From a virus, in IMG/VR virus record IMGVR_UViG_3300030107_006898, positions 1 to 55,589 of that record: a stretch of 55,589 nt of DNA; one strand, 5' to 3'. The notes beneath the pieces are model-generated. The model searched no databases. It had not been told where the DNA came from and saw only the letters and a list, made by a program, of their open reading frames with translations. Below, piece after piece: positions 33,006 to 47,102 of the stretch (its first letter is position 1; each line of letters opens with the position of its first letter). Position numbers and translations under genes: made by a program.

Positions 33006-34386
33006 CTTTTACGACAACTGGCACATTGATGCTATCTGCGAGTATCTTCAGGCTGTGGCAGAGGGTGATATTCGCCGTCTGATAATAAACATTCCACCAC
33101 GCCACATGAAAAGCATCACATCTTCTGTTGCTCTACCAGCTTGGCTTTGGACGCGCGATCCTCAGAAAAGATTTCTTTTCGCCTCATACGCAAGTTCTCT
33201 GTCAATAAGAGACTCTGTCAAGTGCAGAAGGCTTATCGATTCTCCTTGGTACAAAGAACATTTTGGAGAGAACTTTCGCCTGACGACCGACCAGAACCAG
33301 AAGCAAAGATTTGACAATGACAAGACTGGCTATCGAATAGCAACTTCTGTCGATGGTGCGTTGACTGGTGAGGGTGGTGACATAATTGTCATTGATGATC
33401 CGCACAATGTTCGCGAAGCTGAAAGCTCCACTGTCCGTGAAGGTGTTTTGGAGTGGTGGGATCAGGCAATGCAAACCCGGCTCAATGATCCGCAGACAGG
33501 TGCATTTGTCATAATAATGCAACGTGTTCATGAGGCTGATCTGACTGGGCATATTTTAGCCAATGATGTTTCCGGAGACTGGCATCATCTTTGTCTCCCC
33601 GCTCGTTATGAACCTGACCACCCTTCTATCGTGACTGGCACTGGCAACAACATTGATCCCAGAAGTGAAAGAGGTGAGTTGCTCTGGCCCGAAAGAGTTG
33701 ACGAGAAAACCCTGTCAGATCTGGAAAGATCTCTTGGTGAGTATGCAGCTGCTGGCCAACTTCAGCAGAGGCCAATGCCGCGTGGTGGCACAATACTCAA
33801 GAGCAAGTGGTGGCGACCTTGGGAGAAAGAAGAACTCCCCAATATTGAATATGTCATCCAGTCCTGGGACACAGCATATTCCACTAAAGAAAAAACTAGC
33901 TATTCTGCTAGGACAACTTGGGGTGTGTTTACATATGAAAACTCTTGGAATGCTATTGTCATCGATTGTTGGTATGATCGTGTTGGCTACCCAGACCTCC
34001 GCAGAGAGGCGCAAGATGCTTATGCAGCCTATGAACCTGATGCAGTCCTCATAGAAAAGAAAGCATCTGGCCAAAGTTTGATCCAGGATCTGCGCATGGC
34101 TGGCATCCCAGTCCTCGAGTATTTGCCTGACAGAGACAAAGAAGCTCGTGCCCATGCGGCATCGGCTCTTCTCGAAGATGGAAGAATTTGGTTTCCCTCA
34201 GACAAGAAATGGGCTAAAGATATAATAAGTATTTGCGCAGCATTCCCTGCTGGGGAGAACGATGACATCGTAGACACATGTACTCAGGCTTGGTTACGGC
34301 TAAGAAAAGGCTGGTTCCTGACACACTCAGAGGACTGGGAAGATGAGGAACAACAACCAAGGCAAAAGGTGGTGATGTATGGCTAA
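32944..34386 (+). CDS. terL: Terminase large subunit
   Basis: 480 aa from the ATG with CGGAG upstream, overlapping the small subunit by 62 bp. Walker A variant NIPPRHMKS (about 49-57), Walker B IIVIDD (about 147-152). Nuclease domain with QSWDTAYS, VLIEKKASGQ and NDDIVDTCTQAWLRL carrying the acidic residues. ATP-driven motor that translocates DNA through the portal and cuts concatemers. The His in PPRHMKS replaces the usual P-loop lysine region, as in other members of this family. Confidence 0.95.
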   Translation: MRRSLKQFIMGSWNTIEPGRNFYDNWHIDAICEYLQAVAEGDIRRLIINIPPRHMKSITSSVALPAWLWTRDPQKRFLFASYASSLSIRDSVKCRRLIDSPWYKEHFGENFRLTTDQNQKQRFDNDKTGYRIATSVDGALTGEGGDIIVIDDPHNVREAESSTVREGVLEWWDQAMQTRLNDPQTGAFVIIMQRVHEADLTGHILANDVSGDWHHLCLPARYEPDHPSIVTGTGNNIDPRSERGELLWPERVDEKTLSDLERSLGEYAAAGQLQQRPMPRGGTILKSKWWRPWEKEELPNIEYVIQSWDTAYSTKEKTSYSARTTWGVFTYENSWNAIVIDCWYDRVGYPDLRREAQDAYAAYEPDAVLIEKKASGQSLIQDLRMAGIPVLEYLPDRDKEARAHAASALLEDGRIWFPSDKKWAKDIISICAAFPAGENDDIVDTCTQAWLRLRKGWFLTHSEDWEDEEQQPRQKVVMYG

Positions 34387-36862
34387 AGACCCAACTGCTA
34401 TGATTCCCTTTTCAGAGGGAGCGCCGGATGATGGCTTGCAGGTTGAAGAACTCCCGAGTGGAGAAGTTCTTGTTGGTGCTTTTACCCCAGCGAATGATGA
34501 GCCAGAATCTGAATTTGATCAAAATTTAGTAGAATTCATTGATCCGAGAGATCTCAGCTCATCCGCTTCCGAGCTTATCGATTACTTTGAATCTGACAAA
34601 GCTGGTCGTATGGAGTGGGAGCAGCGCTACAAAGATGGCCTCAAAACTTTAGATCCCGACGGCAATCTTCATGATGATGATGAGGAGAGAGCCATCCGTG
34701 GTCTGAGCCAAGTTGTTCATCCAATGATTGCTGAAGCTGCGACGCAGTTTCAATCCCGTGCCATCGCAGAACTTTATCCTTCTGGTGGCCCAGTGCGCAC
34801 AGTCATTGTCGGTGAGACAGATGACGAAGTTGATGCACAAGCGACACGTGTCAAAGAATATATGAATTATCAGATCACACAGGAGATGCCTGAGTTCTTT
34901 CCTGATCTTGATAAAATGCTATTTCATCTGCCCCTTGTTGGACAAACTTTCAAAAAGGTTTGGTTTGATCCATCACTTGACCGAGTAACAGCACGCTTTG
35001 TCCAGGCAGAAGACTTTGTTGTTTCCCCAGACAGCACAGATCTTAAAACCTCCCCTCGTTACACACACATAATTAAACTTTCTCGCAACGACTATAACAG
35101 ATTTGTCAAGGCTGGCTATTATGAGCCGCTTGATTTAACTTCTGTTGGGGCAGATGAAGATTCAAACACAGTCGAGGAGATTGAAGGAATCTCGGCTTAT
35201 GATGCGGAGCGTGATGATGGGACTGTCGTCCTGCTTGAGATGCACACGTATTATATGTTTGATGGTATTGATGGCGCAGACTCTTCAGATGACAATGCTG
35301 TTGCACTACCATATGTCATAACCATTGAGCAAAATTCAGAGAAGATAGTTTCTGTCCGCAGGAACTGGAATGAAGAGGATGAGCGCCAAGAAAAGAGAGA
35401 CTGGTTTGTCGAATACAAGTTTCTTCCTGGCCTTGGTTTTTACGGCTTTGGCCTGTATCATATTATTGGAGGTCTTGGAAAGGTCGCCACTGGATCACTT
35501 CGCGCTCTTTTAGATTCCGCTGCTTTCTCTAACATGCAAGGTGGTTTCAAGCTCAAAGGTCGCGTCCCCGGCGGCGAGATGGACATTGCCCCTGGAGAGT
35601 TTGTTGATCTTGACGCCACAGTTGACGATGTCAAAAAGGCAGTTATGCCGCTGCCTTTCAAAGAGCCTTCCAGCACACTCTTTCAGCTTCTAGGATTCAT
35701 TGTTGAGGCTGGGCAAAGGTTCGCTGCCATTGCTGATCTTAATGTTGGCGACGCCACAAACCAAGCTCCTGTCGGCACAACTGTTGCGTTGCTTGAACAG
35801 GGATCAAAAATATTCAGCGCGATCCACAAGAGGCTCCATGTCTCTCAGAGCGATGAATTTAAGATCATGGTCAGCCTCAACTCGATGCATCTCGAAGATG
35901 AGATGAAGTTTGCGAAGGCTGGTGTTTCGACTTTCATTCGTCGAGAAGATTTTGACGATCGCATTGATGTCATCCCGGTATCTGACCCAAACATCTTCAG
36001 CTCTACGCAACGCATTGCCCAAGCTCAAGCCATTCTTCAGATGGCCCAAAGTGCTCCGCAACTTCACGACATGTACGAAGCATACAAGCGGATGTACGAA
36101 GCTGTCCGAATTCAAAACACAGATGAAATTCTCATTGAACCAGCGAAAGCTGCGCAGCTAGATCCCGTCGATGAAAATATGGCTGTGTTGCTTGGCAAGC
36201 CAATCAAGGCATTCACTGAGCAGAATCACGAAGCTCATATCGCTGTTCACCTCCAGTTCATGAGTGATCCCTCGCTTGGTGGCAACCCAGCTGCAAAAGC
36301 ATTGCAACCAGTTCTAGTTGCTCACATTGCCGAGCACGTTGCGCTGCTTTATAGACTGCGAATGGAAAAAGCTATGGGCATTGATCTTCCCAAGCTGCCA
36401 GACATCAGAGATCCTAAGTTCAAGTTCAAAGACATACCGCAAGATGTTGATGATGCAATTGCCGAGCGAGCTGCAATGGTTGTTCAGCAAGTTCCTCAGA
36501 TGGAGCCAATAAAGGGCTTGGCTGGTTTGGCTGGTCAGCAACAAAATCCTCTGCAATATGCCAAACAGCTAGCGCAGCTTGAAGCAGATGCATTGATTGC
36601 AAGAACCGAAGCTGAAATCAAAGCTGATCAGGCCAAGGCGCAATCTGACATGTCAATTGATCAGGCCAAAGCACAGCAAAGCCTGCAAGCGCAAATGATG
36701 AAAATGCAAGCTGACCTTGAAGCCAAGATGGCGAAGCTGCAAGCTGAAGTTGAAATATCTCGTCAAAAAGCTGCTGCTGACATGCAGCTAGAGCAAACAA
36801 AAGCTGCCGCCGAAATTCAAGCTGACATTGCTAAAGATGCCCGCCAAGGAGAACTTTTATAA
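34379..36862 (+). CDS. Portal protein (P22-type, large)
   Basis: 827 aa, overlapping TerL by 8 bp. The N-terminal half has the portal pattern (QRYKDGLKTL...GLSQVVHPMIAEAATQFQSRAIAELYPSGGPVRT...FHLPLVGQTFKKVWFDP...DFVVSP). The last about 130 residues are a Gln/Lys/Ala coiled coil that would form the barrel seen in P22-type portals. Dodecameric entry point for DNA and attachment for the short tail. The size itself argues for podovirus morphology. Confidence 0.9.
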   Translation: MAKDPTAMIPFSEGAPDDGLQVEELPSGEVLVGAFTPANDEPESEFDQNLVEFIDPRDLSSSASELIDYFESDKAGRMEWEQRYKDGLKTLDPDGNLHDDDEERAIRGLSQVVHPMIAEAATQFQSRAIAELYPSGGPVRTVIVGETDDEVDAQATRVKEYMNYQITQEMPEFFPDLDKMLFHLPLVGQTFKKVWFDPSLDRVTARFVQAEDFVVSPDSTDLKTSPRYTHIIKLSRNDYNRFVKAGYYEPLDLTSVGADEDSNTVEEIEGISAYDAERDDGTVVLLEMHTYYMFDGIDGADSSDDNAVALPYVITIEQNSEKIVSVRRNWNEEDERQEKRDWFVEYKFLPGLGFYGFGLYHIIGGLGKVATGSLRALLDSAAFSNMQGGFKLKGRVPGGEMDIAPGEFVDLDATVDDVKKAVMPLPFKEPSSTLFQLLGFIVEAGQRFAAIADLNVGDATNQAPVGTTVALLEQGSKIFSAIHKRLHVSQSDEFKIMVSLNSMHLEDEMKFAKAGVSTFIRREDFDDRIDVIPVSDPNIFSSTQRIAQAQAILQMAQSAPQLHDMYEAYKRMYEAVRIQNTDEILIEPAKAAQLDPVDENMAVLLGKPIKAFTEQNHEAHIAVHLQFMSDPSLGGNPAAKALQPVLVAHIAEHVALLYRLRMEKAMGIDLPKLPDIRDPKFKFKDIPQDVDDAIAERAAMVVQQVPQMEPIKGLAGLAGQQQNPLQYAKQLAQLEADALIARTEAEIKADQAKAQSDMSIDQAKAQQSLQAQMMKMQADLEAKMAKLQAEVEISRQKAAADMQLEQTKAAAEIQADIAKDARQGELL

Positions 36863-37476
36863 TGGCTGATCAATACAACAATCCAACCAATCCAGACATG
36901 CAAAGCTACACTGCTGGCCCGCAAACTCCTGGAATCGGACCAGTGACAAATCAAGAGATGGACCAGTTCATGGACATGATGCCATCTCGTCAGGATGAAC
37001 TCCAGCAGCGAGCTTACCAGTCTTACATGGATGCACTACGCAGATTGCGTCAACAAGAGGATAAAGGTCTTGCTCCATCAGCAGCACCAGCTGCCGATGC
37101 TCAAAATAGACTTAATGAAATTCGCAGTGGCATGAATGCCGCCAGAGCTCAGATGCCTCCTGCGATTGACCTAGAGGACTATTTCAATCAGAGAAATGCA
37201 GGCATGGGATCAATGATTGGTCAACCAGTTGGTTCCGGGTCTACAAGCGATGCTGAATTCAGAGCTTACCAAAATGCTGTCCAATCAGGCCAGATGTCCC
37301 CGGCTGATGCAGCTTCTGCAGCTACTGGATTGCCAAACCCATTTAACCAAATGCCCCGTGCTGGTGGAGCACTTGGCGGTTTGGAAGGTGTGCAACCAGA
37401 TAAAGCTGTTGAGGATGCTATGCCTCTCGCAAATTTCCTCAAAAATTTATTCAACAAACAAGGAGCAGCACAATGA
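36862..37476 (+). CDS. Unknown virion-module protein
   Basis: 204 aa, TAATG coupled to the portal. Rich in M, Q, P, A and N and probably partly disordered, with a central helix (QQRAYQSYMDALRRLRQQED). No motif. May be an internal head protein. Confidence 0.6.
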   Translation: MADQYNNPTNPDMQSYTAGPQTPGIGPVTNQEMDQFMDMMPSRQDELQQRAYQSYMDALRRLRQQEDKGLAPSAAPAADAQNRLNEIRSGMNAARAQMPPAIDLEDYFNQRNAGMGSMIGQPVGSGSTSDAEFRAYQNAVQSGQMSPADAASAATGLPNPFNQMPRAGGALGGLEGVQPDKAVEDAMPLANFLKNLFNKQGAAQ

Positions 37477-37640: not shown

Positions 37641-37884
37641 TGATGTTGTTGACATGGCTGCTATGTTTGAAGCCAAGATGGGTTTCTCAGCTGAAGATGT
37701 TCCGCTTAATGATGAGCAGCTATCAAACTTCCTGATGCTTTGTCAAGAAACCATGCTTAAAGAATCTGGCATGATGGAAGATGAAGAGATGATGGAGGAC
37801 GATGTTGAAGTCCGAGTTATTAAAGTTCACGATGGCGACATCCATGGAATGATGGACAAGGTGCTGAAAGGACACAGCTACTGA
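37633..37884 (+). CDS. Small acidic protein, unknown
   Basis: 83 aa, very acidic and Met-rich (ESGMMEDEEMMEDDVEVRV). Immediately precedes a series of very basic small proteins, so it might neutralise or chaperone them. Coupled to neighbours by overlaps. Confidence 0.6.
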   Translation: MADDVVDMAAMFEAKMGFSAEDVPLNDEQLSNFLMLCQETMLKESGMMEDEEMMEDDVEVRVIKVHDGDIHGMMDKVLKGHSY

Positions 37885-38072
37885 TGGCAGAAAAGTTGAC
37901 GAAAAAACAGAAGATTGCCAAGCTCAAGAAGCAGAAGCCATCTCTCTATCGCAACATCAACCTAAAGAAACTTGGTGCAGGGAAAACTAAGAAAAAGCGC
38001 AAGGTTGGTTCCAAAGGTGCCCCGGCAAAAGGTGCTTTCAAACGTGCAGCAAAAACTGCGAAGAAACGATGA
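37884..38072 (+). CDS. Highly basic small protein 1
   Basis: 62 aa with about 40% Lys/Arg (KKQKIAKLKKQKPSLYRNIN; GKTKKKRKVGSKGAPAKGAF). Resembles histone-tail or protamine-like DNA-condensing peptides. Starts in an ATGG overlap with the acidic gene and ends in an ATGA overlap with the next. Confidence 0.65.
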   Translation: MAEKLTKKQKIAKLKKQKPSLYRNINLKKLGAGKTKKKRKVGSKGAPAKGAFKRAAKTAKKR

Positions 38073-38221
38073 AAAAGTCTGTTTCCGCTCCAAAAGGTTT
38101 CCACTGGATGAAATCAGGCAAAGGTTTTAAGCTGATGAAAAATCCAGCTGGTGGTTATAAGCCGCACAAAGGTGCAAGTCTTAAGGCATCATTTCCTGTC
38201 CAGCAGGTTCATAAAAAATAA
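38069..38221 (+). CDS. Highly basic small protein 2 (50 aa)
   Basis: 50 aa. Core APKGFHWMKSGKGFKLMKNP, a pattern I associate with tiny basic peptides in aquatic phages. ATGA overlap upstream, TAATG overlap downstream. Nucleic-acid binding inferred from charge. Confidence 0.65.
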   Translation: MKKSVSAPKGFHWMKSGKGFKLMKNPAGGYKPHKGASLKASFPVQQVHKK

Positions 38222-38478
38222 TGGCAACTTACAAAGGCAAAAAAGTTTCTCTGAATAAACCTCGCCGCATAAGCAAAGGCGAAACAAGCTATGGGAAAAA
38301 GAAATCTGTTGTCTATGTTATGGATGGCAGTAAAGTTAAGCGTGTGACTTTCGGCGATCCGAACATGCGCATCAAGAAAAATCAAAAAGGTCGCAGGAGC
38401 AACTTCAGGTCTCGTCACAATTGTGACAACCCCGGACCAAAGACAAAAGCACGTTATTGGTCTTGCAAAGCGTGGTAA
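38221..38478 (+). CDS. DUF5872-like basic protein
   Basis: 85 aa: YKGKKVSLNKPRRISKGE at the N-terminus, VTFGDPNMRIKKNQKGRRS, then SRHNCDNPGPKTKARYWSCKAW. The last block (RHNCD...ARYWSC..W) is a conserved domain that I recall from phages and large DNA viruses of algae. Two Cys and aromatic residues may bind metal. Function unknown; the basic character suggests nucleic-acid contact. Confidence 0.7.
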   Translation: MATYKGKKVSLNKPRRISKGETSYGKKKSVVYVMDGSKVKRVTFGDPNMRIKKNQKGRRSNFRSRHNCDNPGPKTKARYWSCKAW

Positions 38479-38488
38479 GGAGTCAACT

Positions 38489-38590
38489 ATGAACTATGGA
38501 AAAAAGCGATCCGAAAACAAAAAGGCTTTGAAGAAGAAAAAAGTCATGAAGAGAAAGAAGCCAATGCGCAAAGGCATGCGTAAATATTAA
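38489..38590 (+). CDS. Highly basic 33-aa peptide
   Basis: 33 aa, more than half Lys/Arg (KKALKKKKVMKRKKPMRKGM), with AAGGAG upstream and a TAATG overlap downstream. Protamine-like composition. Confidence 0.6.
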   Translation: MNYGKKRSENKKALKKKKVMKRKKPMRKGMRKY

Positions 38591-38733
38591 TGCCTGTTCG
38601 TAAGGTCAAAGGCGGGTATAGATGGGGCAAGTCTGGCAAAGTCTACAAGACCAAGGCAGCAGCCGAGCGTCAGGCTCGCGCCATCTACGCATCTGGCTAT
38701 AAAGGGAAAAGGAAAAATGGCAGGAAAGGGTAA
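38590..38733 (+). CDS. Basic 47-aa peptide with KVYKTKAAAERQARAIYASGY motif
   Basis: 47 aa. The recognisable core starts GGYRWGKSGKVYKTKAAAER and continues to AIYASGYKGK, a module found stand-alone and fused in phage proteins. Start overlaps the previous stop (TAATG), and its end overlaps the first MAGKGK-tagged gene by 17 bp. Probably nucleic-acid or virion associated; no proven role. Confidence 0.65.
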   Translation: MPVRKVKGGYRWGKSGKVYKTKAAAERQARAIYASGYKGKRKNGRKG

Positions 38734-39496
38734 ATTCGGAAAATTTGTAGAGGAACAAGCAAGCGGTGCTCTTGATTCTCTTTCTGATACTATTTCAAGT
38801 GTCTTGCCAGATAATATTTTTGATCTCCCGAGCTTTAAAGAGGCAACCAGAGCTTTCAAAAAATCACAAATTGATGAAAGTGAAGGTTATTCAACAGGCG
38901 AGTTCAAATATGATAATTCTGAGTTAGATGCAGAGCAAATTTCAACACACTCTTTGGATGCCGGAGATGATTTGCAACTTATAAACTATGATGAAAGTGG
39001 ATATGGTGGAGCTTTAAAAGATTGGTATGATGGCAAAATCGAGCTGGAAAATTTTGCTGAACATAATAATTTTGGTGGGATGGGGTCTGAATACCTTCCA
39101 CAAACTAATTATCCTTTAGATCCAGTGTCTCATATTATAAGAGACCTTGAATTTAATTATAACATGTCTAAAGATGAAATAATTGATTATTTTGAAAAAA
39201 ATAATGCACTTCCGAAAGATTTTGGCCCGAGAAATGTGGAGTCTTTGTCTGATGAAGAGTTAGACGATATTCTAATGAAGGGAGTTTTTCGTCTTTCTGT
39301 TGATCCCGAAACAGGATCAGTCACCACCAAAATGATGGAACAAACTCCAGAAATTGCTATGATTAAAGAAGCATTTCGTTCTGGTGATCCAAACAACCCA
39401 ATCGTTAAAAATATTCGTGGCGCTCTTGCTGATCTTGCAGATGAAGATGGTCTTGCTGAAGTTACGCCAGATATGATTTATGGGAAACCAAACTAG
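38717..39496 (+). CDS. MAGKGK-tagged protein 1
   Basis: 259 aa. The N-terminal tag MAGKGKFGKFVEEQASGAL is followed by LDSLSD. The tag is shared with five later genes, the body is not. It shares IFDLPSFK (about 33-40) with tagged protein 2 and a DPxxxIIxxLE...SKxE segment later. The remainder is acidic and without a known domain. RBS GGGAAAAGGA. Proposed virion cargo by analogy with the other members. Confidence 0.65.
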   Translation: MAGKGKFGKFVEEQASGALDSLSDTISSVLPDNIFDLPSFKEATRAFKKSQIDESEGYSTGEFKYDNSELDAEQISTHSLDAGDDLQLINYDESGYGGALKDWYDGKIELENFAEHNNFGGMGSEYLPQTNYPLDPVSHIIRDLEFNYNMSKDEIIDYFEKNNALPKDFGPRNVESLSDEELDDILMKGVFRLSVDPETGSVTTKMMEQTPEIAMIKEAFRSGDPNNPIVKNIRGALADLADEDGLAEVTPDMIYGKPN

Positions 39497-39687
39497 TGGC
39501 CAGAGCTAAAATCAAAAAAGTCGCTGCTGCAGAGATTCGCGCTGCCAAGAAGTTCCTTGAGCGCCGTGGTTTGAAAACCAAAGATCTTTCGCCGCGCAAG
39601 TTTGCTCAAGCAGCCAAGGAGCTTGATGAGTCGTTCAATGACACGCTGAATATCCTCGCGCAAGAAATACAAGGTGGCCAAGGCTGA
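39496..39687 (+). CDS. Small helical basic protein, unknown
   Basis: 63 aa from a GTG that overlaps the upstream stop (TAGTG). Basic N-terminal helix (ARAKIKKVAAAEIRAAKKFL), then a SPRKFAQAAKELDESFND helix. The only member of this stretch without the tag apart from the 157-aa and 80-aa proteins. Its stop overlaps the next tagged gene (TGATGG). Confidence 0.6.
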   Translation: MARAKIKKVAAAEIRAAKKFLERRGLKTKDLSPRKFAQAAKELDESFNDTLNILAQEIQGGQG

Positions 39688-40265
39688 TGGCTGGCAAAGG
39701 CAAATTCGGAAAATTTCTTGAGGGCAAAGCACATGGGGCTTTGGGAGAACTGACGGATGTGTTTACATCTAAAGATGTTCCTGTTGATGAAAGTAGAAGA
39801 ACTTTCATAAAGGGAGCAGCAGTTACCCCTATTTTTGCTGGTGGCGCATTGGCTGGAATTAAAGTTGGAGCTAAGCTGGTCGATGACATTTTACCAGTAG
39901 CATCCAAATCAGCTCCAAAGCTACCACAGTCAATATTTGACCTCCCAAGTTTTAAATCTGTTGATGCCGCATTTGAAAAAGTATTTCCTTCCGGAGAAGA
40001 ATCATTCGGATTTGGAACTGATTCTCTTTTAGCAGAAATGTCTGACTTTTCAGAAAAATATTTCTTGTCTTCGATGTCTTCTGGTGATCTTTCTAAACTT
40101 TTGAAAGAGGGTGGAGGAGAAGCAGCTATAGATCCATTAACTCCTATAATAAAAGAGCTTGAAGAAAAAGGTCTTAGCAAGTCTGAAATGGCAGAATATC
40201 TTTTTAGAAATGATGCTTATGATCCTAGCGAAGAAGCTAAAAAAGTTTTAGGACTGGTTGATTAA
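39687..40265 (+). CDS. MAGKGK-tagged protein 2 with Tat-like motif
   Basis: 192 aa. Tag MAGKGKFGKFLEGKAHGALG, then TDVFTSKDVPVDE, then SRRTFIK (Arg37-Arg38) leading into a hydrophobic Ala/Gly segment (about 43-62). This S-R-R-x-F-x-K plus hydrophobic stretch is the twin-arginine signal consensus, though with a long n-region. IFDLPSFK and DPLTPIIKELEEKGLSKSE are shared with tagged protein 1. TAATG coupled to the next member, to which its first 120 bp are very similar. Confidence 0.65.
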   Translation: MAGKGKFGKFLEGKAHGALGELTDVFTSKDVPVDESRRTFIKGAAVTPIFAGGALAGIKVGAKLVDDILPVASKSAPKLPQSIFDLPSFKSVDAAFEKVFPSGEESFGFGTDSLLAEMSDFSEKYFLSSMSSGDLSKLLKEGGGEAAIDPLTPIIKELEEKGLSKSEMAEYLFRNDAYDPSEEAKKVLGLVD

Positions 40266-40879
40266 TGGCTGGCAAAGGCAAATTCGGAAAATTTATTGAA
40301 GGCAAAGCTCGTGGAGCTTTGGAAAATCTTTCTGATGTGTTTACATCTAAAGATGCCCCTGTTGATGAAAGCAGAAGGCAATTCATAAAACAAGCACCTG
40401 TTGCAACAGCAGGAGGGGCAGGTGCCTTAGCTGGTCTCGGAACAGCAACAGCACTAGGAGCTAAAGCTCTTTTTTCACAAGGCAAATTTGATGATATCTT
40501 AGCCAAAATTAAAGATTCGTTTGACCCAGATGCATATGACGATATTTATTCCGCTGGTGAAACTTTGCAGAAAAAATTAGGAATTGATGATAGCGAATTT
40601 GCCAAAATCTCTGAAGAAACTACAGCAATGGATGATGCATTGTATTATCAAGATTTAAATATAGATAATATGAATTCTTCTGAGGTTGCAGAATTGGTCA
40701 GGAATTCTATTGATGATATTTTTGAAAGTTTGATTTGGGATCATAAGAAAGGAAGAGGAGAGAACCCTATGGTTTTGGTAGATGAGTTCAAAATTCCAGC
40801 ATTTAAATTAGAAGTCGAGAAAAATTTTCCTAATCTTGATCAAGATGAAGTAGATGATTTGGCAAAGAGATTGTTCTGA
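40265..40879 (+). CDS. MAGKGK-tagged protein 3 with Tat-like motif
   Basis: 204 aa. Tag MAGKGKFGKFIEGKARGALE, the same TSKD-PVDE linker, SRRQFIK at the same position (Arg37-Arg38) and an Ala/Gly-rich hydrophobic segment (about 46-68). The body (DDILAKIKDSFDPDAYDDIY...) is acidic, helical and unlike tagged protein 2, although the first 120 bp are nearly the same at DNA level. This suggests recent duplication followed by body replacement. Confidence 0.65.
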   Translation: MAGKGKFGKFIEGKARGALENLSDVFTSKDAPVDESRRQFIKQAPVATAGGAGALAGLGTATALGAKALFSQGKFDDILAKIKDSFDPDAYDDIYSAGETLQKKLGIDDSEFAKISEETTAMDDALYYQDLNIDNMNSSEVAELVRNSIDDIFESLIWDHKKGRGENPMVLVDEFKIPAFKLEVEKNFPNLDQDEVDDLAKRLF

Positions 40880-41352
40880 TGGACGCAAAAAGATTTCTTA
40901 GCAATTTGTCCGAAAAAGCCTCTGAAGGAATGCCACCTTTAGAAATTGATCTTGGTGCTCTAGGGAAGTTGACTCCAAAAATTGACATCTCTGGTGGGTA
41001 TTCTTCAAAAGATATCCCAGTTGAGCTTCCGGGTGGTTTGGTCAAAATAGGCGACACTCTTTTCAGAGCAGGTGGCAAGGTTGGTTTTGATTTGGAAACA
41101 CCTTCTGGCTATCAAGTTGGTGGCGGTGTTCAAGGTGGGTATGCCAGAGGACAAATAGAGTTCCCGAAAGAGCTTCAAGAATTTGGAACTCCTGAATCCC
41201 AATCATATGGAACTCGCGGTGTGGATGTTCAGTCTTATAATGCATATTTGAATACACCATCCGGTTTAGGCTTTTACGGAAACTACTCCCCAGAGACAGA
41301 ATTTTCTGATCCAAGATATAGTGCTGGCATTCGTTACAAGGCTAAATTCTGA
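40879..41352 (+). CDS. Beta-barrel-like protein in the tagged cassette
   Basis: 157 aa. A short helical N-terminus (DAKRFLSNLSEKASEG) is loosely similar to the tag. After it, a series of alternating strands rich in G/Y (GKVGFDLETPSGYQVGGGVQ; YNAYLNTPSGLGFYGNYSPE) ends YSAGIRYKAKF with a C-terminal Phe. The alternating pattern with terminal aromatic residue recalls outer-membrane beta-barrel ends; it has no signal peptide. Could insert in the outer membrane after ejection. Confidence 0.55.
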   Translation: MDAKRFLSNLSEKASEGMPPLEIDLGALGKLTPKIDISGGYSSKDIPVELPGGLVKIGDTLFRAGGKVGFDLETPSGYQVGGGVQGGYARGQIEFPKELQEFGTPESQSYGTRGVDVQSYNAYLNTPSGLGFYGNYSPETEFSDPRYSAGIRYKAKF

Positions 41353-41783
41353 TGGCAGGAAAAGGCAAAATAGGAAAATTTCTTGAGGGCCAAGCTCGTG
41401 GAGCTTTGGGAGAACTGACGGATGTTTTAAGTTTCTCTGATGCAAAACAAAAAAGAGATTTCAGTGCATTGCCGGAAGATGTCAAGTATCAATCTGCACA
41501 CTCTCTCCAACAACCTTTAATTACTAAAGATCGAAACATACATGAACTTGCTTCGGAGATTGCATCAAGAGGTGTAGGTAGGTCTGAGAGTGGAGTTGCA
41601 ATTAACACACCATCTGAGAAAGAACTTATGGGATTGATATTGGAACAAATGGAATCTATGTCTGCTTTGGGAAAAAGTATTCGTGAAAAAGGACACGACC
41701 ACCCAGAAACTAAAGCAATCATAAATCGAACTAATGAGCTATATAAGATAATAAATGATTTCGGCGATACATTGGGCGAGTAA
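41352..41783 (+). CDS. MAGKGK-tagged protein 4
   Basis: 143 aa. Tag MAGKGKIGKFLEGQARGALG followed by ELTDVL, DNA-identical in part to tagged protein 2. Body about 110 aa, helical, no known domain (SEKELMGLILEQMESMSALGKSI...INRTNELYKIINDFGDTL). Overlaps with neighbours on both sides. Confidence 0.6.
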   Translation: MAGKGKIGKFLEGQARGALGELTDVLSFSDAKQKRDFSALPEDVKYQSAHSLQQPLITKDRNIHELASEIASRGVGRSESGVAINTPSEKELMGLILEQMESMSALGKSIREKGHDHPETKAIINRTNELYKIINDFGDTLGE

Positions 41784-42505
41784 TGGCTGGCAAAGGTAAA
41801 ATTGGGCGCAGCATTGAAAAGGCAATAGCGGATCTCCCGGACGCTGCTCGTAGATGGCTCAATTCTTTAAGTGACGAAAAAATTTCCGCATCCTCTGGTG
41901 AAGTTAAGCCTTCTGAATGGCCGGAGTTTGTTGACAAGCTCAAAAATGTTTACACTGAAGCGCCATTTGCGTTTTCTCAATACGAGCCAAATGTTTTGAA
42001 AGAGGCGATTGCCGAATCCGCAGATGGCCTTTCTGACATTGCTCTGATAAGCCCTAAAGATTTCCGTATGCTTGCTGCAAGAAATCTTGAACAGTGGATG
42101 GAGGGTGGTAAATATTATTCACCAGATGATCCTATCACTCAAGACATTTTCAGCAAAATAAATAAATATGCTGATATGTATGAAGATGGAATTCAATTTG
42201 ATGATATTCCTCGTCTTGAAGTTGACCAGCCATTTGAAGGTGTTGCTCAAGTTGTTGGTCATGAAGGTCGGCACAGAATCCGTGGTCAAGAGAAACTTGG
42301 GACAGAAACAGCTTTAATAAAAATTTTAAGACAAAGAGATTATGATCTTAAAGGCTCCGATGATGTTTTGCACACAGAAATGAGTCACCACCAGCCAGCC
42401 TCTGAAGGTGGTGGTCAATCTTATAAGCCTTCAGCTGAGGTTTTGAAGTTTTTAAGCCTTGGTGCTGGTGTTGGTGCGCTTGGAAATTTGGTTGAAGATA
42501 GATGA
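41783..42505 (+). CDS. MAGKGK-tagged protein 5 with HEGRH motif
   Basis: 240 aa. The tag is shorter (MAGKGKIGRSIEKAI). Residues about 85-190 contain DIPRLEVDQ then GVAQVVGHEGRHRIRGQEKLG; His160-Glu161-x-x-His164 fits HExxH, and the 'HEGRHR...G' block recurs in phage polyvalent proteins. The C-terminus is Gly/Leu-rich and hydrophobic (FLSLGAGVGALGNLV), similar in style to tagged protein 6. May be a metal-dependent enzyme or a substrate-binding domain. Confidence 0.6.
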   Translation: MAGKGKIGRSIEKAIADLPDAARRWLNSLSDEKISASSGEVKPSEWPEFVDKLKNVYTEAPFAFSQYEPNVLKEAIAESADGLSDIALISPKDFRMLAARNLEQWMEGGKYYSPDDPITQDIFSKINKYADMYEDGIQFDDIPRLEVDQPFEGVAQVVGHEGRHRIRGQEKLGTETALIKILRQRDYDLKGSDDVLHTEMSHHQPASEGGGQSYKPSAEVLKFLSLGAGVGALGNLVEDR

Positions 42506-42744
42506 TTGTTGGATGGATAATTTTAATTCTTATGGTTTCCCCTGGTGGAAATAAACATGATGCTGTTGAGGTCTCCCACAGAATGGGTAAGCCGCTTGTT
42601 TTTAAAACAAAAGAAGATTGCGAAAATCATGTTATGAACAATTCATTTTATTTGACAGCTTTTGCTCTTAGCCAATTTGATTCTAGAATTTCTGTTGATA
42701 AAATTGCTTGCATAAAAAAAGTTCTTAAAGGAAGCACTCTTTAA
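42502..42744 (+). CDS. Small exported protein with Cys pair
   Basis: 80 aa, ATGA overlap upstream and TAATG overlap downstream. N-terminal hydrophobic signal (MIVGWIILILMVSPGG) and two cysteines (about 40 and 70) that could form a disulfide in the periplasm. It resembles small signal-bearing proteins of aquatic phages; no function known. Confidence 0.6.
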   Translation: MIVGWIILILMVSPGGNKHDAVEVSHRMGKPLVFKTKEDCENHVMNNSFYLTAFALSQFDSRISVDKIACIKKVLKGSTL

Positions 42745-43445
42745 TGGCTGGCAAAGGAAAAATTGGAGAATTTGCAGAGCAGCACGCCCGTGGTGCACTA
42801 GATGCCTTGACAGATGCTTACAAAAGGACATTTGACCCCGAGACATATTATCATGCAACTGGTGTTCCTGACATAAAAAAGTTTGACCCTTTTGCTGAGT
42901 CTCCTCATGGTGCTTTTGATGAAGCTGGCGCAACTTTTTTCACTCCCGATAAAAAACTTGCTGAACATTATCTTTATGGTAGCAAGGGTGCTGAATATTT
43001 GCACGGGCCAGTTGATAAAAGCTCAACTGAAGCGAAAGAGATTGCTGATGAATATGGCCGTGTTCCTACAGTTTATGAAGTTAAGATAAAAACAGACAAA
43101 CTTTTTGATCCAAATGATGAATCTCATATTCAAAAAGTTTATGAAGAGAATAAAACAAATTTCGACAATATTGATAATTTTAAAAATTATGTTGATGAAG
43201 CGATGGAAGGTGCCAGTTATGCAGATCCGGATCATGATTTTTATGAAATGTTAAAAGGAATTGGCTTTAGAGGTTTTAGAAATAATCCAAATGAAGTTGG
43301 TCTTTTCTACCCAGACAAAGGTGATGTGCGCTCTGTCTTCGCCAAGTTTGACCCCGCAAAGTCGGAGTCAGGGGAAATTCTAGCTTCAGTGCCAGCAGCT
43401 GCTTTTGTGGCTGGAGGGGCTTTAAGTGGATTAGTTGATGAATAG
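42744..43445 (+). CDS. MAGKGK-tagged protein 6, ADP-ribosyltransferase-like
   Basis: 233 aa. Tag MAGKGKIGEFAEQHARGALD, then an ART-type core: YYHATG (35-40, His37), GATFFTPDKKLAEHY (62-76), a VYEVKIKTDKLFD strand, then GIGFRGF and VRSVFAKFDPAKSESG near the end. This order (YHGT, FFT..A..Y, 'R..a.FDP...') is that of ADP-ribosyltransferase domains found in phage polyvalent proteins. A hydrophobic Ala/Gly tail (PAAAFVAGGALSGLV) ends the protein. Predicted to transfer ADP-ribose from NAD to a host target if delivered with the virion; the catalytic Glu is not assigned with certainty. Confidence 0.65.
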   Translation: MAGKGKIGEFAEQHARGALDALTDAYKRTFDPETYYHATGVPDIKKFDPFAESPHGAFDEAGATFFTPDKKLAEHYLYGSKGAEYLHGPVDKSSTEAKEIADEYGRVPTVYEVKIKTDKLFDPNDESHIQKVYEENKTNFDNIDNFKNYVDEAMEGASYADPDHDFYEMLKGIGFRGFRNNPNEVGLFYPDKGDVRSVFAKFDPAKSESGEILASVPAAAFVAGGALSGLVDE

Positions 43446-43890: not shown

Positions 43891-44238
43891 ATGGCCCATC
43901 CCCATGCACCACAGCCATTAGGCTGGAAAGTTCTGGTAAAACCATTCGAAGCACCAGACAAAACTGATGGAGGAATCTACCTTCCTTCTCAAGCCAAAGA
44001 CGCAGAAGAATACCTCACAGCACATGGCCACATTATTTCTATGGGCGAGCTTGCTTATAGAGAAAGAGAGAGTGGCCACAAGTGGAAAGGTCATTGGCCA
44101 AGCATCAATGATCATGTCACTTATGGCAAATACGCTGGTCAAAAAATTGTGGTTGATGGCGAAAAATTTCTGATTCTTAATGATGATGAAATAACATCAA
44201 TCCTTCCTGATGATTGTGAGGTAAATAATCATGTCTGA
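43891..44238 (+). CDS. GroES-like co-chaperonin
   Basis: 115 aa. N-terminal GWKVLVKPFEAPDKTDGGIYLP matches the GroES start. After an insert comes NDHVTYGKYAGQKIVVDGEKFLILNDDEITSIL, matching the GroES strand 'V.fgkyaG.evk.dg.e.lil.e.dil'. Acts as lid for host GroEL to fold large phage proteins, as T4 gp31 does for the capsid protein. Location directly before scaffold and capsid genes supports that. Confidence 0.88.
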   Translation: MAHPHAPQPLGWKVLVKPFEAPDKTDGGIYLPSQAKDAEEYLTAHGHIISMGELAYRERESGHKWKGHWPSINDHVTYGKYAGQKIVVDGEKFLILNDDEITSILPDDCEVNNHV

Positions 44239-45130
44239 AGAAGAGATTAAAAAAATTGAAGAGGAAATTGCAAACGCGCCTCTAGAAATAGAGCTTGTTG
44301 ATGATGAATCAAAAGAGCAAGAGGACCAAGAGCCAGAGCCTCAAGAAGCTAAAAAAGAGCAGGATGATCAAGAATTCAGCAAAAGAGTTCAAAAAAGAAT
44401 CAGCACGCTCGTTCAACAGCGTAAGCAAGCTGAGGCCGAAGCTGAACAATCACGCTCGGAACTTTCTTCTCTGAGATCAAGGCTAGAGCGTCTTGAGCAA
44501 GGATCAAATCAACAGGCGCAAACTGCTTTTCAAGAACGCTACAATCAGGCCCGAAATCTGTTGCAGACAGCAATAGAAGAAGGTGACACAAATGCTCAAG
44601 TAAGTTATCAAGAGCAACTCGCCGATATGCGTGCTGCAATGCGCGTTCAAGAAATGCAGCGTCAACAACAAGTTCAAAGGCAGATCTCCCCGACAGTTGG
44701 TAGAGCTGCTCAGGTTCAATCTGATCCTACGCCGCAAAAAGCAATTGACTGGTGGCAAAGGAACAATTGGTTTAATTCTGATGGTTTTGAGAGGGAAACT
44801 GCAGCAGCTAGAGCTGTTGATGTTCAGCTCGAAATAGAAGGTTATGACAAAAACTCTTCGGAGTACTACGAAACTCTCGATGGTCGTTTAAGAAAAATGT
44901 TTCCAGAACTGATTGGAGAGAGTAATGTAAGAGAGAAGTCTGCACCTAGGACAAAAAGCAGATCGCCAGTTGCACCAACTGCAGGTGGTCCTAGTCGCAG
45001 AGGAGGTCGCGTTAAGATGACGAAAGATCAACTTTCCATGGCTCGTGAGCTCGGAATAACCGACGAAAAAGGTTTGAAGGCTTATGAATCTGAGTTGAAC
45101 GCATTGCAACAGGAGAATAAGAATGGTTGA
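44231..45130 (+). CDS. Capsid scaffolding protein
   Basis: 299 aa. Acidic N-terminus (residues 1-60), long Gln/Glu/Arg coiled coil (about 60-150), a central WWQRNNWFNSDGFERETAAA segment, and a C-terminal basic region (SPVAPTAGGPSRRGGRVKMT) of the kind scaffolds use to bind capsid protein. Overlaps the GroES-like gene by 8 bp and precedes the capsid genes. Confidence 0.8.
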   Translation: MSEEEIKKIEEEIANAPLEIELVDDESKEQEDQEPEPQEAKKEQDDQEFSKRVQKRISTLVQQRKQAEAEAEQSRSELSSLRSRLERLEQGSNQQAQTAFQERYNQARNLLQTAIEEGDTNAQVSYQEQLADMRAAMRVQEMQRQQQVQRQISPTVGRAAQVQSDPTPQKAIDWWQRNNWFNSDGFERETAAARAVDVQLEIEGYDKNSSEYYETLDGRLRKMFPELIGESNVREKSAPRTKSRSPVAPTAGGPSRRGGRVKMTKDQLSMARELGITDEKGLKAYESELNALQQENKNG

Positions 45131-46196: not shown

Positions 46197-47102
46197 ATGG
46201 CAATGCATAGAGCACAATTTGCTAAAATGCTCGAGCCAGGACTAAACACTCTGTTTGGCCTGGAATACGATACATACCCGGAAGAGTACAAAGCTGTTTT
46301 CGCAGCAAACACTTCCAGCAAAGCATATGAAGAAGATGTTCTGTTGGAAGGTTTCGGGAATGCTCCTGTAAAAACGGAAGGTGCGGCAGTCAGCTATGAT
46401 GAAGCTACCCAGCAATGGACAGCTCGTTATCAGCATGAGACGGTTGCTCTTGCCTTTTCGATCACGGAAGAAGCTGAGGAAGATGGCCAATACGGCTCTC
46501 TTGCTGCTCGTTATACGAAAGCATTGGCTCGCTCGATGGCTTCCACTAAAGAAGTCAAGGCAGCTAATATTTTCAATAACGCAACTTCCGGCAGCCACAC
46601 GGGTGGTGATGGTGTCTCGCTCTTGAGCACTTCGCACCCAACTCGCAGTGGAAACCAGTCGAACACACTTTCGACTGCTGCTGATCTTTCGGAGACTTCT
46701 CTCGAGTCCGTTTTGATTAACATTGCTGATATGAAAGATGATCGTGGTCTTCGCGTCGCTGCGCAAGGCACTCGCTTAATCATTCCCACAGCTTATGTTT
46801 TCACTGCTGAAAGGCTCCTTGAGTCTCAACTCCGAACAGCAACTGCTGACAACGACATCAACGCGATTCGCTCTGGTGGCTACTTGCCTCAGGGTTATCA
46901 TGTTATGCGTCGTATTTCTGATTCAGATCGTTGGTTCGTCCAGACAGATGTTCCTGATGGACTTAAAATGTTCCAACGCTCTCCGATGAAGAAGGGCATG
47001 GAAGGCGATTTCGAAACTGGCAATGTCCGCTACAAAGTTCGCGAGCGTTATTCGTTCGGGTTCACCGATTGGCGTGGCGTTTTCGGTTCCGAAGGTGCCT
47101 AA
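46197..47102 (+). CDS. Major capsid protein (HK97-fold type)
   Basis: 301 aa with a strong AGGAGG site. Pattern FAKMLEPGLNTLFGLEYDTYPEEYKAVF, then LLEGFGNAPVKTEGAAVSYDE, ALAFSITEEAEEDGQYG, a SHPTRSGNQSNT loop, LIIPTAYVFTAERLL and a C-terminal KVRERYSFGFTDWRGVFGS. This is the Mu gpT/HK97-like capsid layout. Followed at once by a strong hairpin. Confidence 0.85.
   Translation: MAMHRAQFAKMLEPGLNTLFGLEYDTYPEEYKAVFAANTSSKAYEEDVLLEGFGNAPVKTEGAAVSYDEATQQWTARYQHETVALAFSITEEAEEDGQYGSLAARYTKALARSMASTKEVKAANIFNNATSGSHTGGDGVSLLSTSHPTRSGNQSNTLSTAADLSETSLESVLINIADMKDDRGLRVAAQGTRLIIPTAYVFTAERLLESQLRTATADNDINAIRSGGYLPQGYHVMRRISDSDRWFVQTDVPDGLKMFQRSPMKKGMEGDFETGNVRYKVRERYSFGFTDWRGVFGSEGA

Follow-up and report, generated by a model that had tools for sequence, protein, structure and literature searches.

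The 55,589 nt viral record IMGVR_UViG_3300030107_006898 (hereafter the window, meaning this whole stretch) carries a cassette at positions 38717-43445 in which six genes encode proteins with a common N-terminal sequence, the tag, attached to differing bodies. The six genes (A to F, starting at 38717, 39687, 40265, 41352, 41783 and 42744) sit between portal and scaffold on the same strand as the terminase, the portal, a GroES-like gene, the probable scaffold and the capsid (Table 1), and most cassette junctions are small start/stop overlaps (e.g., TAATG and TGATG), as reported in a preliminary description made from the letters of the window. That description also had all six genes starting MAGKGK[FI]G, and the open reading frame (ORF) table bears this out at every coordinate, with each protein reading MAGKGKFG or MAGKGKIG. 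The complete tag, M-A-G-K-G-K-[FI]-G-[KE]-F-x-E-x-x-A-x-G-A-L-x-x-L-[ST]-D, is present in five genes; the KF continuation attributed to all five is present in four (GKF) and reads GEF in gene F. The sixth, gene E, keeps only MAGKGKIG and a degenerate LxDA, and its orthologue in the related locus L026 retains RGALEGLSDAAQRW. What had been called a six-gene cassette does hold six tagged genes, together with three untagged ones starting at 39496 (63 amino acids, aa), 40879 (157 aa) and 42502 (80 aa). The IFDLPSFK motif is common to genes A and B and variants of it follow the tag in relatives, in agreement with the mobility proposed for it.

N-termini were compared in 2,112 pairs from portal-anchored loci. 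All 15 of the 15 tag pairs in the window outscored every one of 500 shuffles, which excludes chance as the source of the resemblance. The bodies, earlier described as unrelated, scored at background with the exception of A and B, which share the IFDLPSFK module. Significant tag pairs were also found in L007, L023, L025, L026, L030, L036, L038 and CRP-901, with body scores mostly at background. When genes A and F were compared, codons 1-24 comprised 8 identical, 8 synonymous and 8 non-synonymous positions and codons 25-48 comprised 0, 1 and 23, respectively; the tag residues have therefore been kept while the codons drifted, and similarity ends sharply after the tag. The tag is thus conserved at the protein level and its similarity mostly does not reflect recent copying, the exception being genes B and C, whose first 120 bases match at 102 (85%), a figure for which "nearly the same" was generous wording. 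No consensus RNA structure was found across eight tag regions. A signal peptide was rejected as an identity for the tag, which itself has no hydrophobic core, as was membership of one known soluble family, the bodies being unrelated.

Table 1. Genes of the cassette and its borders in the window.
Feature	Coordinates	Strand	Remarks
Portal	34379..36862	+	SU10_portal PF23899, E 2e-14; bounds the locus upstream
Gene directly 3' of portal	36862..37476	+	Versions in relatives have MGALGNLxED in the C-terminal part
Tagged gene A, 259 aa	38717..39496	+	Tag MAGKGKFGKFVEEQASGALDSLSD, then IFDLPSFK module; GALADLADE near C-terminus
Untagged small basic protein, 63 aa, isoelectric point (pI) 10.1	39496..39687	+	Within cassette; kept in relatives including CRP-901/902
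Tagged gene B, 192 aa	39687..40265	+	Tag, then Tat-like DESRRTFIKGAA, then IFDLPSFK
Tagged gene C, 204 aa	40265..40879	+	Tag and Tat-like DESRRQFIKQAP in common with B; body differs; orthologue L010_534
Untagged glycine-rich protein, 157 aa, C-terminal F	40879..41352	+	Looks beta-barrel-like; relatives have similar genes
Tagged gene D, 143 aa	41352..41783	+	Body without recognised relatives
Tagged gene E, 240 aa	41783..42505	+	Short tag MAGKGKIG; body motif VVGHEGRHRIRGQEK; C-terminal FLSLGAGVGALGNLVEDR
Untagged protein, 80 aa	42502..42744	+	Hydrophobic N-terminus; homologue L010_1630
Tagged gene F, 233 aa, predicted ART-PolyVal-type ADP-ribosyltransferase	42744..43445	+	C-terminal GGALSGLVDE; orthologue matches; Foldseek E ~6e-5
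GroES-like co-chaperonin (Cpn10)	43891..44238	+	Cpn10 match; GroES annotation in CRP-901/902; bounds the locus downstream
Probable scaffold, 299 aa, acidic N-terminus	44231..45130	+	Role suggested by position
Major capsid protein	46197..47102	+	Phage_capsid_4, E 1.4e-14

A portal search and an ADP-ribosyltransferase (ART) search gave about 90 loci in relatives, a subset of which have a cassette of related bodies at the corresponding position. There, the body families recur in phages whose portals are 62-95% identical, each genome having its own shared tag. The window has MAGKGKFGKFxExxARGAL; elsewhere the forms are MAGKGKIVRGAL, MGKGKYVRGAL, MSKAQAVRGAL, MPKLPVKIKPGALP and MANPVKGAIxQLGExVI. 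Five genes of L023 begin MAGKGKI[VIA]RGALE or MAGKSKI, and L107 has seven or eight tagged genes. Tags start MAGK[SG] in L025 and L030, M[GS]KG[KE] in L026, MSKA[KQ] in three genes of L007, M.A.SK[IF].Q in L124 and L008, and MPKLP[VI]KIKPGALP in L036 and L038; among cultured roseophages, the Roseobacter phage CRP-902 (host strain FZCC0083) has four genes with MANP[VI]K (gp65, gp66, gp68 and gp72) and CRP-901 two tagged genes. Body order runs A-B-C-D-E-F in the window, G-C-F in L010, B-E-A-H-F in L023, G-X-A-H-F-E in L107, E-F-G-J in L026 and G-F-E in L007, and orthologues of gene A bear other tags (L006_1082, L023_15819, L107_2040, L124_2192). Over residues 2-6 of 34 tagged genes, tag identity was 0.733 between different bodies of one genome and 0.449 between the same body in different genomes, with 46% for different bodies in different genomes. 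On permuting tags among genomes within body families, the observed value was reached in 0 of 5,000 permutations (p = 2e-4, which is indicative, since it concerns five residues only and related genomes are not independent). From these identities and the permutation we conclude that the tag tracks the genome rather than the body. It is not the one fixed sequence first assumed but is particular to each genome, with the genes of a cassette changing together, and because it differs between genomes a strict MAGKGK DNA pattern matched only two close contigs. The tag arrangement persists in at least eight tag lineages, including that of the cultured CRP-902. Planktothrix Pag-Yong1 and Caulobacter RW have the portal-to-GroES interval without a comparable cassette, and the locus is therefore accessory.

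A search with a tag profile, the check proposed in the preliminary description, returned 39 matches at E < 0.01 among 6,253 ORFs from more than 100 related loci, all of them in the portal-to-GroES interval; the profile was built from 34 tags, and most of the 39 matches were among its input while five were not. The next-best matches (E 0.013) were small genes directly 3' of the portal in CRP-type phages, which contain MGALxAISDA. The tag forms a genome-specific amphipathic helix with a basic start, and the N-terminal hydrophobic moment was 0.43 in the interval versus 0.33 elsewhere (p 2e-11). A motif related to the tag, GAL..[LIV].[DE], was present near the C-terminus (final 35 residues) in 24 of 115 interval proteins versus 2 of 284 others (homologues counted); in both of these others the gene is the one that follows the portal. 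This C-terminal GALxxLxD/E motif may serve the same docking as the tag.

A twin-arginine translocation (Tat)-like motif, [DS]RRxF[LIM]K followed by a Gly/Ala-rich hydrophobic stretch, occurred among 24 loci in cassette proteins only: genes B and C (residues 37-42) of the window, L023 14594, L031 6101, L053 14830 and L107 935. The L031 protein scored above the Pfam TAT_signal cut-off. The motif may direct proteins, once ejected, to or through the inner membrane.

None of the nine cassette proteins had a significant family in Pfam or PHROGs scans, and none combines two recognised domains. Gene F is predicted, from its orthologues and its model, to be an ADP-ribosyltransferase of the ART-PolyVal type. 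Its orthologues matched that family at 1.1e-5 (L023) and 4.2e-5 (L025), both below the cut-off, with another at 3.3e-4, and matches above the cut-off were obtained in fused relatives (L018, 5e-13; L013, 4e-10). The AlphaFold model of gene F had a predicted local distance difference test (pLDDT) of 84-93 in the core and 64.6 on average, and Foldseek against predicted viral proteins retrieved, with E values from 5e-6 to 1e-3, both ART-PolyVal and large polyvalent proteins. There was no significant match in the PDB; the best, a chain of the cyanophage A4 pre-ejectosome (E 0.0096), was kept merely as a hint because it is weak, because none of the scanned internal and tail proteins of Anabaena phage A-4L had a Pfam ART match and because the A-4L internal protein gp28 is found in a different entry, 9k2v. 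A search for the gene F ART in the phages collection gave no matches. Further enzyme families were found in the cultured phages, with a PBECR5 RNase above the cut-off in CRP-901 and CRP-902 (gp65 in the latter) and a GNAT above the cut-off in CRP-902 gp68. Family E returned 0 matches as a single query and five loci as an alignment query. In the family alignment gene E is 45-69% identical to 4 relatives; its AlphaFold model was poor (pLDDT 52.5) and was not used. In more distant relatives (L008, L013, L014, L016, L017, L018) the ART lies within one 449-1623-aa chain adjoining the portal, following a different N-terminal region in L008. Where others have these longer chains, the window lineage has individual genes united by a common tag.

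Three tagged proteins of relatives stood out. The ART gene of L025 (9573-10205) has the tag and C-terminal tail of its relatives and a different middle part, which suggests that the catalytic domain was replaced between conserved ends. The tagged protein L036 14014-14817 has, by eye, a VFRQG, SFS and EEE signature and is possibly an R-S-E (Alt/VIP2-like) ART, a class unlike the ART-PolyVal of the window. The largest cargo seen with its tag type, a 639-aa tagged protein of L026 (10607-12526; MSKGELISGALTHLTD), contains what looks like the LLIDEMQSPW motif of polyvalent proteins.

Among known systems, the closest in kind is the capsid-targeting sequence (CTS) of phage T4, carried by IPI, IPII, IPIII and Alt, and the analogy with Alt drawn in the preliminary description is apt. 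In that system 10 N-terminal residues of IPIII are enough for targeting, and the cargo, which includes an ART (Alt), differs from one relative to another (PMC9026906). The present cassette likewise has a short N-terminal peptide on otherwise unrelated small proteins and a cargo that varies between related phages and includes an ART, and prohead loading is what we infer for it. It differs from the T4 system in that the tag has no apparent sequence similarity to the CTS, is near-uniform within a genome yet differs between close relatives, is accompanied by extra C-terminal GALxxLxD/E copies and belongs to phages with an SU10-type portal and a Phage_capsid_4 capsid, not a T4-type head; the window portal and adaptors match SU10_portal and SU10_adaptor. 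In T4 a prohead protease cleaves at L/I-x-E; here no HK97-type prohead protease was detected. An S78 protease was not found, with positive search controls, and a search for an S77 prohead protease was negative but had no positive control, hence is not evidence of absence. By analogy, the tag appears to work like a CTS yet not to be a member of the T4 system.

Three other comparisons bear on the cargo and its setting. The families ART-PolyVal, PBECR and GNAT have been proposed by others as packaged and injected, with a role in the first minutes of infection, as parts of polyvalent proteins (Iyer et al. 2017, PMC5512222); the cassettes of the window and its relatives share these families and the late, portal-adjacent portal-terminase context, whereas here the domains are separate small genes with an address peptide, not one long chain. 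Phage P1 also loads a set of internal proteins into its head that act on the next host (Dar/Hdf; PMC12810830), as the tagged set here would, but P1 relies on dedicated capsid-binding proteins (DarA, Hdf) for packaging the others and has no per-protein tag. Marine podoviruses of the HTVC023P/CRP-901 type (PMC10149686) share the structural module (portal 63% identical to that of CRP-901), the GroES-like gene and small conserved genes; unlike the window, the CRP phages have the tag MANPVKGAIxQLGExVI and not MAGKGK, with CRP-902 holding its own four-gene set. The passages of PMC10149686 consulted do not describe the tag arrangement, and searches of open-licence literature, mostly abstracts, yielded no description of a shared tag in this phage group.

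The reading we favor, at a probability of about 0.62, is that the first 17-25 residues act as a tag by which small exchangeable effectors are loaded into the virion. The tagged proteins would be synthesised late, and the helix would dock each onto a procapsid partner (the scaffold, a portal-proximal protein or the inner core). Small single-domain effectors, such as the ART and, in relatives, the PBECR RNase and GNAT, would be enclosed in the procapsid, ejected with the DNA and then modify the new host, docking and ejection being postulated by analogy with T4. The locus would amount to a polyvalent protein cut into small genes, with a common address peptide replacing covalent fusion and letting bodies be gained, lost and swapped. 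The earlier proposal of a capsid- or ejection-targeting peptide delivering effectors is the best-supported reading, given the confinement of the tag and the families predicted to be injected; on this reading the proteins would be present in virions and the tag would be what puts them there. Several points weigh against it. No virion proteome was found for any of these phages, so packaging is judged from context, and the docking partner of the tag is a postulated one. Untagged neighbors show that the tag is not needed by every gene of the locus, and some tags deviate (L010_1866, whose form is unlike that of its neighbors, L107_3187 and gene E of the window). No domain was recognised in bodies A to E, the ART-PolyVal (PF18760) match of gene F itself (E 0.055) is below the Pfam cut-off and its model is of low confidence outside the core. 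A more elaborate scheme is possible but on balance doubtful: a modular address code with a lineage-specific tag co-diverging with a procapsid receptor, an open-ended effector set and, on some cargo, a second, Tat-like signal (RRxF[LIM]K and a hydrophobic stretch) leading the ejected protein to the inner membrane of the new host or across it. If true, this would be two-step targeting, first into the virion and then to a host compartment.

Instead of loading effectors, the tag could assemble an inner core or ejectosome, in which case the tagged proteins would be structural ejection proteins lined up on the portal and forming the trans-envelope channel, with enzyme-like domains secondary. The cassette adjoins an SU10-type portal, its proteins have glycine-rich hydrophobic segments and C-terminal tails, and the weak PDB hit of the ART model was to a pre-ejectosome chain; however, gene content and order vary strongly among near relatives, some of which have no cassette, unlike what is seen for essential channel proteins, and the identifiable bodies are enzymes, which makes this explanation unlikely. 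We consider it quite unlikely that the tag is a membrane-targeting amphipathic helix on unpackaged proteins acting late in the producing cell (e.g., in lysis timing or superinfection exclusion). Its basic start and helix, and the Tat-like motifs and hydrophobic segments of several members, would suit that role, but genome-specific concerted change fits a co-evolving phage partner better than a host membrane, and the ART, GNAT and RNase families occur in virion-context polyvalent proteins (PMC5512222). That the shared 5' ends are functionless remnants, left when a gene start (ribosome-binding site and first codons) was duplicated repeatedly and the bodies were later replaced, would account for the resemblance of genes B and C, the start-stop overlaps and the evident body shuffling, but is highly improbable given the synonymous divergence with residues preserved, the sharp end of the similarity, the persistence across tag lineages and the motif copies at C-termini.

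Further features of the locus were noted. Just upstream of the cassette, at 37884-38590, lie 3-4 very basic small genes (pI 10.7-11.7, 24-40% K+R), as expected of internal head proteins. The 63-aa basic protein (MARAKIKKVAAAEIRAAKKFLERRG...), kept in many relatives within an otherwise variable cassette, is a candidate for a core head protein or for the receptor of the tag. Untagged glycine-rich cassette genes of ~150-190 aa with an alternating pattern and a C-terminal phenylalanine, as in the window, recur in L041 14642, L045 14428, L053 15671 and L060 9060, and their sequences are reminiscent of an outer-membrane beta-barrel signal. The rest of the window encodes ArdC-N and MPTase-PolyVal domains, an SNF2 helicase, the thymidylate synthase Thy1, a PolIII-alpha-like polymerase and Pam3 gp32-34-like proteins. 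A promoter and terminator scan was close to background.

If the favored reading of a virion-loading tag is true, an abundant marine podovirus group has a capsid-targeting signal unrelated to that of T4, and phages can swap giant fused polyvalent proteins for a tag-and-cargo scheme. The tag would be a way to recognise ejected effectors even when their bodies match no known family, and so short a peptide might serve to load foreign proteins into virions. With its four tagged proteins, the cultured CRP-902 makes the scheme directly testable.

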